Assembly (NCBI RefSeq): GCF_026914265.1
Contig: NC_069136.1
Coordinates: forward strand, 50,509,381-50,573,380
DNA from: Mya arenaria
Taxonomy: Eukaryota > Mollusca > Bivalvia > Myida > Myidae
Direction: 5' to 3'
Length of the DNA stretch: 64,000 nucleotides
Below, in pieces: positions 3,694 to 60,617 of this stretch. Every line of letters begins with the position of its first letter. The stretch's first letter is position 1. The notes under the pieces are model-generated. The model made no database searches. It was not told the origin of the DNA and saw only the letters and a list, made by a program, of their open reading frames with translations. Made by a program: the position numbers and the translations under genes.

Positions 3694-3754
3694 ATGAATT
3701 CATTGAAATGTGTAATTGTGACAATTTTGTGTTGTTTGGGAATAATTTGTAAAG
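3694..3754 (+). CDS. Copy 1 exon 1: start codon and signal peptide
   Basis: Twenty codons plus one base, starting MNSLKCVIVTILCC and ending CKG across the junction. A hydrophobic core followed by small residues fits a secretory signal peptide. The donor is AAAG|GTACTG, phase 1. The same exon occurs at 33,775 (copy 2) and, broken, at 56,780 (copy 3), which fixes the start choice. Confidence 0.75.
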
Positions 3755-6700
3755 GTACTGTGCTATTTCAATATAACACCCGTTCAACTTAAGTATCAAT
3801 TTGTAAGGATATATTTATTTATATAGTTTAAATATTTAAACATAAACAATTACATTTAGGATGAACATCGTTTTCTAATTGTGACTGTTAAACAAAAATT
3901 CATTCTCAACGTAAAAGGCTTATTTGCAAGCATTGAATATGAAAGCATTCAACAAACAGCATCAAAACAGGACTTGTTGTAAATTGTAAACTCAAGGCAA
4001 TGTGTATAATGTGTAGAATAGTAATTGCTAACACTTCCTTGGTTTTTCGAATTAAACATATTTTGAGCGAAGCTTGAGTTTAGTAAAAAAAAAAAATCAC
4101 GAGGATTGAAAATACTAACTGTGTTTTAAAATGTTCTCTTATAGGAGAATTAATTTTACATTTAATATGGTACATGTTTTAAACATCTGTAATATTTCTA
4201 TGTCACTTAATGTGTTTCTAAAGGTGAACGGAAGACTTGAGGAGTATAATATGCATGGTAAATGAGTTGTTTGTCAAAATTTTAGTATTTATCGTACATT
4301 CCTCAAATTCGGTAGCAACTTTCCGACAAAGGTTGTCTATCATTGGATGAGATAGGTAGATCGAGGAGATTAATAGCATAGTTTAACAAGTGTAATAACT
4401 CCGTGTCATGCTACATGGCGCATTCTCGTATTTCAATTTGTCCCAAAACGTTTGGTGGCGTTGATTATATGAAACATATTATTTAATGAAGTTACATCAT
4501 TGCAAAGAATTATGCATACCATGATTTTGTAAATGTTTGGTTAAGATATCTTTTAGCGTTAAAGTGTTCAATGAGTGCTATACATATGTGGTAACAATTC
4601 TGCGAATGGAATATCAGGAAAAGAGTTATTTGATGAAAACAACTTTTTCTTTGTGCAAAATCTGTGTTCACAATATCACATCAATTTGATTGGTGAGCGA
4701 TATTTAACGTTGCTGTACACGTTCAGTGGATCAAAGATTAGGAACCTAACGGGTTCTAACTGTACCTTAATGGCCGACATCGAGTATGAGCCAATTAACG
4801 ACGATGACAATACCGAGCTTAAGGTGCCCTTTGTGCGTGCGGACAATGGCGTTTTTAACACGGACAATATTGATGATGATGCAGTTAATTCGGATGCAGA
4901 GAGTATATGTAACCTGTCCAGAGTTCTCCAAGATGATAAGTTCTACCAAGAGTACAACCGTATGCTTGTCTGGTACCGTGAACTGCCGTCGGGAATGTTT
5001 GTCTCCCGTCTTCTGCGTGAATACGCCTCTAGTGAACCGGACCTTGAGAATATAAGGTCGATGTTCTTTGAAGCTGTTAAAGCATACGATGACTTTCCGT
5101 TCTGGCACACCATCGAACCTAAACGCAGGATGGAAACCCGGAACGGCGAGAGACGGTCAGTAAAGCTAGCTAACGATATATATGCGCTGGTGTCCGTGCT
5201 GGAAGGTGAGGATTTCTCACAGATCAAGGACATGATAAGCACTTCCAAACGCACGATTTCACAGACCCCGGCTCGTAAGACACAAGATGATAGAAGTCAA
5301 CATCACCCGGCAGAAGTGCAACTACTCAAGGACACTACTGCAGCCCTCCAGGCTGACGTTTTAAACATAAAGCAGACGATCTTTGCGAACGAAAAGTTAC
5401 GAGGTGAACAAAGTAAACAATTGTTAAAAACTGTAAATGATGTAAAGGTGGACCTATTTAACTGTGGCAAAACTATTAAAGATTGTGCTTTAAAGATGTC
5501 AGTGTACATGAATGATGTGGGACGCATTATTAAACCAATTGAAAATGCGCTTGGATCTCTGGATTCTCGTATTGGGCACCTTGAACGTTTTATTGATGGG
5601 GCTCAGATGTTCGCAGTCTCTAGCCTCAGGCACATGTTTTATTCAAATAATGCGTGCGCATCAGAACAACATGAAGTTAGATCGCCAGCATCTAGATGTG
5701 AAACAGGTGTAGAACGTGACGTCACTACGGATACAAATGACGTCATCACAGATACTAATGACGTCACCACGAAAACAGTGACGTCACCACGGAGAATAGT
5801 GACGTCACTGCGCCACCGACCGTCAATGAAAGGGCATCCAGAAATGACATAGATGATGATGAGTGGCCCACGTTACGCGCCTCCACTGAAGTAACGCGTA
5901 AAAAGATACCAGTGATTGTAACTCATAACGGTGAGGAACAATTTACTAACTTGTCACGACGATCTACTAGGCGTTTTTATGTTGGTGGTTATCATAAATC
6001 GGTGACTGTTCAGAACATATACTCATATGTGAATGCACGAGGCCCAACTGTAACGAACGTGCGGATTTTCCCAGTACGTAGGTCACCGAGCTGGGTTGTT
6101 ATTCGCGTCAATGTCGAGGCTAATGACGCAAGTGACTTACTTCTATGTGATGGGTTTTGGTCGGACTTTGTCAAGTGTGCGCCGTGGTTAACGCGCAATG
6201 AGCTACTGGAACAATACCAGAAAGGTGGGAGTCGGCCCCTTCCTGATCGCCGCGGCCATATGGAGAATAACCGTGGTCGCAGCAGGGTCGGTCATCGGAA
6301 CGACTACGAGGGTAGGCGTTACCATTCCGGACGTATTGGGGAGCGTGGGGATGTAGGGGGCCGCCGCTACCCTCCTCGTGCAGGCGGGGCTGCATCCTTT
6401 CGAGGGAGGAGAGGACATCAACGTCGGTTCACTGCGCCAAGGTTCGAGGCGCGTGGTGGTTAACCCGGAAATGGATACTCACGATACGACAGAGACATAA
6501 ACTGTGAGAATAGGTTTGAGTGTCTCGGACAGATTGATACATCAGAAAACTATAATGTTGACTAATTCCATATTTATGCGCATATTAATCATAATCTTTG
6601 TTCTGTGTTTAATGAATTTAAATATCGTTACATGGAATGTGACTGGTATTTTCTCGAGTGCAACTTACCTTACTGACACCCTTGTGAAACATAGCGTTGA

Positions 6701-60209: not shown

Positions 60210-60476
60210 GTACTAATAACATCAAACGAACTTAATGTTATTACATGATTCAGCAATGTATACTTACATGAAATAATATATATCTGAAATCAGCACAGAA
60301 AAGTCTTCCAGTTTACCGAATACGTTCTTGAAGAGGGCTCCTTTTTTCCTTCAGAGACACACATGAAATAAGGTTTATATATTTATGAATTACATATAAC
60401 TTGATATTTTATTTATAAAAGAGATTGCATATGGTTTATTCTGTACGTGGCTGATATATCGACCTTTATATTTCAG

Positions 60477-60617
60477 TTCCTCTTAGCAAAAACTCACATG
60501 ACATTCACAGAAACTGCCTACTGTTCTACTATAAGTCCAAACATGGAAATGATTATTATTGGCAGTCATGCAATTTTCTCACTCCAAAGCTATTATGCAG
60601 CAACAAATACTTTTCAG
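60477..60617 (+). CDS. Copy 3 exon 5, still open
   Basis: VPLSKNSHDIHRNCLLFYYK, YYWQSC and LLCSNKYFSG; donor TCAG|GTAACT, phase 1. Confidence 0.75.

Follow-up and report, generated by a model that had tools for sequence, protein, structure and literature searches.

A Mya arenaria receptor gene array with two unrelated cytoplasmic tails, one bearing an immunoreceptor tyrosine-based activation motif

A 64,000-nucleotide stretch of the genome of the bivalve Mya arenaria (RefSeq assembly GCF_026914265.1, contig NC_069136.1, positions 50,509,381 to 50,573,380 of the forward strand; hereafter the window, in whose coordinates positions are given) contains three tandem copies of a receptor gene. These copies belong to a larger array whose genes join related ectodomains to either of two unrelated transmembrane-tail cassettes, and the shorter tail carries an immunoreceptor tyrosine-based activation motif (ITAM). 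With moderate confidence, we interpret the window as one section of an extensive array of single-pass membrane receptors, found so far only in Mya arenaria, for which we propose a two-output recognition role. The preliminary description of the window, made from its letters alone, proposed a three-gene cluster of lectin-like/WSC-like receptors and overlooked the ITAM as well as the fact that the tails come as two unrelated cassettes.

Tail classes and ectodomain-tail discordance

The tails were compared in 39 sequences (37 database proteins and two window copies), a set that includes isoforms and has copy 2 in two forms. Short tails were present in 14 and long tails in 17, and the other 8 lacked a tail, the class being assigned from the juxtamembrane sequence alone. 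The short tail (~80 residues) was found in copy 2 and in g0, a gene upstream of the window, and the long tail (~220 residues when complete) in copy 1 and in g4 and g5, two genes downstream. An ITAM is defined here as the sequence YxxL/I-x6-8-YxxL/I when located in a membrane protein's cytoplasmic tail, and this is what the short tails contain: the strict motif YEKL-x8-YLSL/I or a close form was present in 14/14 of them, strict ITAMs were found in none of the non-tail parts of the 39 sequences, and residue-shuffled tails contained one in about 0.1-0.2% of cases. The ITAM tyrosines were kept in all nine distinct short tails, which come from two chromosomes. The short-tail class consists of ITAM-motif-bearing receptors, for which ITAM signaling is predicted from sequence. 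All 14 short tails also contained YVN and 12 contained YQN, sites that we take to be linked to Grb2-type SH2 domains. Full-length long tails had 11-13 tyrosines, and a relaxed tyrosine pair (e.g., YNKV-x7-YDHI) was present in 16/17 long tails, compared to about 1-6% of shuffled long tails; a strict ITAM was found in two of the 17, both from one gene. Matches to the immunoreceptor tyrosine-based inhibitory motif (ITIM) type occurred in 4/16 long-tail rows (P0025 being left out of this set) and 3/14 short-tail rows.

Ectodomain and tail are discordant among the array genes. In blastn comparisons, homology between the two short-tail genes, g0 and copy 2, continued through the transmembrane exon, the last intron and the tail, as it did in the long-tail pairs copy 1-g4, copy 1-g5, and g4-g5. 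None of the six short-long pairs showed homology in the transmembrane or tail exon by blastn; in four of them, the last common segment comprised the stalk exon with the beginning of the intron that follows it, and in the two involving g5 it was a repeat after exon 7. On an ectodomain tree of 26 rows, 22 of which had a tail label, tail class required seven changes, which is not fewer than the mean of 6.6-6.7 changes obtained with shuffled labels. Given that the members on other chromosomes form one group (99/96) regardless of tail, both tail classes probably predate that chromosome split, and the ectodomains have probably been homogenised within groups. One hallmark of paired receptors, namely common ectodomains with different signaling tails in one cluster, is found in this array.

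The ectodomain is weakly constrained, as judged from a pooled ratio of nonsynonymous to synonymous substitution rates (dN/dS) of 0.69 (0.61-0.79) over six pairs of four ectodomains, which are not independent of one another. The tails, with one pair in each class, gave 0.99 (0.46-4.52) for the short-tail pair and 0.63 (0.41-1.01) for the long-tail pair.

Extent of the array

Tblastn scans of the window's flanks, 46 kb on the upstream side and 70 kb on the downstream side, revealed g0 upstream and g4, g5 and the first exon of g6 downstream, all on the same strand as copies 1-3, so that the receptor genes span 180 kb. The array is thus not confined to the three genes first described, and the suggestion that further copies be looked for on either side of the window proved fruitful. 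Gene g6 is known from one exon match in the downstream flank, an apparent gene start, and no receptor-family exon was found by tblastn in window-relative positions -46000 to -25101. Because GenBank/RefSeq proteins match the same genes (g0, P0001; g4, P0006; copy 1, P0013; a fragment of copy 2, P0033), the array exons are more than chance similarities. Among the protein-search matches there were 17 distinct LOC identifiers, the majority on the 58.02 Mb chromosome and others on the 52.87 and 75.81 Mb chromosomes; the number of copies and the extent of the cluster are minimum values.

Among g0 to g5, four of six genes (g0, copy 1, copy 2, and g4) are open throughout. Copy 3 is broken, and in g5, exons 3-7 are open and the tail has an in-frame stop. 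Tandem expansion with intact and broken copies had been anticipated correctly, but the count of one intact and one divergent copy does not hold, as copy 1 is fully open. The g5 stop lies directly ahead of the YDHI motif of its long tail (window-relative 123863-124610). The signal exon of g5 and the start of its exon 2 appear to be fused (window-relative 114064-114282), where a single tblastn stretch corresponds to residues 1-72 of P0002.

The protein searches returned 26, 28 and 6 rows, every one named Mya arenaria; no relatives outside this species were found in these searches, which required shared 5-residue words, so that distant bivalve relatives could escape. The literature search found no published description of this clam receptor family. 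The published Mya arenaria reference, for whose annotation RNA-seq was used, comprises 17 chromosome scaffolds totalling 1.22 Gb (PMC10663159). Nearly all relatives are annotated as uncharacterized or hypothetical proteins, 8 of the 37 database proteins are named partial, and copy 2 is annotated solely as the 176-residue fragment P0033; expression and genetic studies would therefore overlook these genes.

Predicted fold of the ectodomain

Intact genes encode a signal peptide, an N-terminal module, a domain with predicted WSC fold (exons 3-4) and two further Cys modules (exons 5-7), followed in most genes by a Thr/Pro stalk of variable length ahead of the transmembrane helix. The single-pass architecture, a signal peptide and one predicted transmembrane helix, is supported for copy 2 by hydrophobic 19-mers at residues 1-19 and 363-381.

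The WSC assignment comes from modeling. Structure prediction, which the preliminary description had recommended for copy 2, was run on relatives: the predicted fold of P0029 matches solved WSC domains, the Wsc1 mechanosensor domain being the best match, while the full-length model of P0002 had a predicted local distance difference test score (pLDDT) of 36.5 and was unusable, also for judging a lectin fold in exons 5-7, the fold search with it yielding noise. In Pfam scans at E up to 10, in which 34 relatives were run one by one (isoform rows P0004, P0005, and P0035 were left out), the WSC model (PF01822) matched 0/34 relatives and 0/2 window copies; a canonical WSC in the same genome scores 40.9 bits. 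By hhalign, exons 3-4 aligned with WSC over 79 of 84 columns (P 0.004, or 0.0004 with P0036, a remote relative on C5 that UniProt labels a WSC protein; probability 3-16%), compared to P 0.17 for exon 2 and P 0.39 for exons 5-7 as control parts; the comparison set consisted of 11 of 13 collected WSC sequences, two wrong-strand ones having been dropped. The WSC hidden Markov model scores were equalled by at most 5/200 full shuffles but by 2-48/200 shuffles that kept the cysteines. Canonical WSC exon clusters above the Pfam cut-off are also found on C5, at 40.45-40.79 Mb and 46.85-46.92 Mb.

No C-type lectin model appeared in the same Pfam tables of 34 relatives and two window copies (E up to 10). 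The only lectin support was the UniProt automatic name of P0022, a protein that itself lacks a Pfam lectin match, and the exon 2 "WIG" motif opens the part that aligns with WSC (model residues 53-148) and so may not be a lectin signature. Of the architecture first proposed, the single-pass receptor, the tyrosine-rich tail and, as modeled on P0029, the WSC-fold middle are retained, and "lectin-like" is not established. No immunoglobulin (Ig) domain was found in the family. An internal repeat relating exon 2 to exons 5-7 was considered and dropped, as it had no profile support.

Proposed role and alternatives

We infer an immune function for these receptors. Located on haemocytes or epithelia, they would recognize a ligand, either a glycan or a protein. 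Once ligand had clustered short-tail receptors such as copy 2, Src-type kinases would phosphorylate both ITAM tyrosines, and a Syk-type kinase would then dock on these through its two SH2 domains, which would set off activation. Long-tail receptors such as copy 1 would bind overlapping ligands, and docking of other SH2 proteins on their many tyrosines would give a different output. As in vertebrate paired receptors, ectodomain exchange between the tail classes would hold the two outputs to one common set of ligands, and skipping of exon 5 or 6 could provide extra binding variants. Oyster lectins with a half ITAM (hemITAM) signal via Syk and ERK in haemocytes (PMC13027682); such a pathway therefore exists in bivalves and may operate in Mya.

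Several observations weigh against this proposal. In the ectodomain tree, 12 of the 23 inner branches are open, the starred branches alone force two changes of tail class, several rows are partial, and P0003 and P0019 carry stalk residues. Non-working copies exist, as copy 3 and the g5 tail illustrate. The long tail is unsupported as an ITIM or inhibitory class, given ITIM-type matches in 4/16 rows, and dN/dS does not support a fast ectodomain on a constrained tail, as the ectodomain value is not above those of the tails.

It is unlikely, though worth considering, that these proteins are adhesion or matrix/mechanosensor receptors, in which the WSC fold and a mucin-like stalk would sense shell, mucus or matrix and the tyrosine tails would couple to the cytoskeleton. 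The Wsc1 mechanosensor domain as best fold match and the stalk rich in Thr/Pro are consistent with such a role, but a fold match does not carry function with it, and the large tandem expansion, the broken copies, the ectodomain-tail discordance and the conserved ITAM fit recognition better. A role in allorecognition or self/non-self recognition, in which polymorphic ectodomains would read the cells of other clams as do the Botryllus fester co-receptors or Hydractinia Alr, seems quite improbable: the gene-rich array with intact and broken copies, the ITAM-type tails and exon skipping agree with it, as do these two precedents, which bear ITIM, hemITAM or ITAM motifs (PMC12065747), but the tails include no clear ITIM class, and clams are solitary animals, for which transmissible neoplasia is the main known form of natural cell grafting. 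We likewise regard as very doubtful that the array is largely a relic of pseudogenes or weakly expressed copies with the ITAM as merely inherited sequence, for although copy 3 is broken, the g5 tail is interrupted, the sole short-tail pair has a dN/dS of ~1 and 8/37 database proteins are named partial, four of six genes (g0, copy 1, copy 2, and g4) retain open exons 1-7 and an open tail, the ectodomain dN/dS of 0.69 has an upper bound of 0.79, and the ITAM tyrosines are present in 9/9 distinct tails from two chromosomes.

Relation to known receptor systems

A tyrosine signal of the ITAM kind starts immune responses in vertebrate cells, and to our knowledge few ITAM receptors have been reported in protostomes. 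The vertebrate paired receptors KIR, LILR and Ly49 have related ectodomains on different signaling tails, clustered genes and exchange between classes, features in which the Mya array resembles them. The vertebrate pairs, however, oppose an ITIM tail to a charged transmembrane segment with an adaptor, whereas the Mya array opposes a receptor with its own ITAM to one with a multi-tyrosine tail and no clear ITIM. With the WSC proteins yeast Wsc1 and Kremen, exons 3-4 share the predicted fold and may share the cysteine framework; polycystin-1 is another WSC-domain protein. The Mya domain differs from these in being below Pfam detection and set within a stalked ITAM receptor. Among invertebrate recognition families, Hydractinia Alr is Ig-like.

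The oyster proteins CgCLec-TM1 and CgCLec-HTM are likewise bivalve transmembrane recognition receptors with an ITAM-type tail motif of their own, and their pathway comprises hemITAM, Syk, ERK and IL-17 (PMC13027682). The oyster receptors combine a recognized carbohydrate recognition domain with a half ITAM, whereas the Mya family has a predicted WSC-fold ectodomain with unrecognized side modules, a full two-tyrosine ITAM, a large array and two tail classes. The Botryllus fester co-receptors and Hydractinia Alr are also invertebrate multigene families with ITIM, hemITAM or ITAM-type motifs; the Botryllus co-receptors are described as alternatively spliced, which parallels the exon-skipping isoform pairs of Mya, and as having Ig and sushi ectodomains and allorecognition roles (PMC12065747), unlike the Mya family, which yielded no Ig domain. 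In print, we found clustered invertebrate families with tails of the ITIM/ITAM type in one tunicate and one cnidarian (PMC12065747), and a bivalve family with similar layout on a WSC-fold ectodomain would represent a further origin of paired-receptor logic.

That a mollusc independently built a paired-receptor complex, with dozens of WSC-fold receptors swapping ectodomains between ITAM and multi-tyrosine cassettes for self/non-self discrimination, is a bold extension of the two-output proposal that we consider decidedly improbable. If true, the array would become a candidate for the locus at which foreign clam cells are rejected, or escape rejection, in the contagious cancer that Mya arenaria carries. 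This clam is a model of transmissible cancer, and how host rejection of non-self cells is evaded is called an open question (PMC11978232).

Exon structure and genomic setting of the window copies

Exons 1-5 occur three times in the window in constant order and orientation with GT-AG borders (Table 1), and where the copies are intact, the intron phases of these exons are 0-1, 1-1, 1-0, 0-1 and 1-1. Exons 6 and 7 lie inside the window for copies 1 and 2, and beyond its edge, at 64787-64984 and 67803-67913, for copy 3. The statement that one exon set recurs three times with conserved phases is accurate for exons 1-7 and in part for the stalk exon, but not for the transmembrane and tail exons, in which copies 1 and 2 show no homology to each other by blastn.

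Copy 2 consists of ten exons with GT-AG borders and a single open frame of 1413 nt, i.e., 470 codons and a stop. This confirms the length reported before, provided that exon 8 starts at 46902; a shorter exon 8 gives 453 aa. The nine exons of copy 1 join into an open frame encoding 565 residues, and P0013 differs from this model only in missing the 3' part of exon 5. A candidate exon 8 of copy 1 at 18399-18471 was rejected, its frame being broken; P0013 also lacks it. The exon 1 frameshift of copy 3 is an 8-bp tandem duplication, and its exon 3 is 1 nt overlong with an in-frame stop. Neither tblastn nor blastn detected a tail exon for copy 3 ahead of the next gene, the transmembrane exon being too short for exclusion by tblastn. 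In both copies 1 and 2, exons 2, 5, 6 and 7 and the pair 3-4 start and end in phase 1, so that each can be skipped without a frameshift, and annotated isoform pairs do skip exons: P0004 is P0001 without exon 5, and P0005 is P0002 without exon 6.

Table 1. Positions of receptor gene exons and related segments in the window.
Feature	Position	Strand	Basis
Copy 1 exon 1, start codon and signal sequence	3694..3754	+	open spliced model; P0013
Copy 1 exon 2, N-terminal module, FWIGYAKTWISYAYVG	12719..12916	+	spliced model
Copy 1 exon 3, predicted WSC fold, first half	13852..13955	+	spliced model; fold modeled on relative P0029
Copy 1 exon 4, predicted WSC fold, second half	15110..15236	+	spliced model
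Copy 1 exon 5, Cys module C..W..C..LLC; 3' part absent from P0013	15349..15489	+	spliced model
Copy 1 exon 6, HWTGI module	16559..16768	+	spliced model
Copy 1 exon 7	17177..17287	+	spliced model
Copy 1 decayed remnant near stalk exon, outside model	18912..18998	+	blastn vs g0, 74.7% over 87 columns
Copy 1 transmembrane exon, long-tail class	20069..20159	+	spliced model
Copy 1 long tail, 218 aa, 11 Tyr, YNKVTLHRTNEYDHI	20653..21307	+	100% to P0013
Copy 2 exon 1, start codon and signal sequence	33775..33835	+	spliced model
Copy 2 exon 2	35513..35698	+	spliced model
Copy 2 exon 3, predicted WSC fold, first half	37649..37752	+	spliced model
Copy 2 exon 4, predicted WSC fold, second half	38603..38738	+	100% to P0033
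Copy 2 exon 5	39540..39683	+	spliced model
Copy 2 exon 6	41809..42006	+	spliced model
Copy 2 exon 7	43608..43718	+	spliced model
Copy 2 exon 8, Thr/Pro stalk	46902..47033	+	matching stalk in P0002
Copy 2 transmembrane exon, short-tail class	49455..49539	+	spliced model
Copy 2 short tail, ITAM YEKLNMTKGVDNYLSL, YVNT and YQNT	50336..50591	+	spliced model, motif counts
Copy 3 exon 1, frameshifted, 8-bp tandem duplication	56780..56848	+	sequence
Copy 3 exon 2, open	57833..58030	+	exon comparison
Copy 3 exon 3, 1 nt extra and in-frame stop	58910..59014	+	sequence
Copy 3 exon 4, open	60074..60209	+	exon comparison
Copy 3 exon 5, open	60477..60617	+	exon comparison

Intron 1 of copy 1 contains a non-long-terminal-repeat retrotransposon (4575-9983, + strand) with a reverse transcriptase match (PF00078, E 8.8e-15) and an endonuclease below the cut-off. 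Between copies 1 and 2 lie cytochrome P450 exons (PF00067; 26507-27673, + strand) and, on the - strand at 31379-32101, a 241-codon open reading frame that matches the reduced folate carrier family (PF01770, E 6.5e-48). ARAGORN called no tRNA genes in the window. Intron 2 of copy 2 contains an element resembling a tRNA-derived short interspersed nuclear element (37090-37300, + strand), whose A- and B-box-like motifs were recognized by eye. A minisatellite with 68-69 bp units is present in the intron after exon 7, at 43802-44047 in the window and in the matching intron of g0, g4 and g5, and thus in both tail classes. Another minisatellite, G-rich and with 31-bp units, is found between copies 2 and 3 (52028-53552), where the local GC fraction reaches 0.50.
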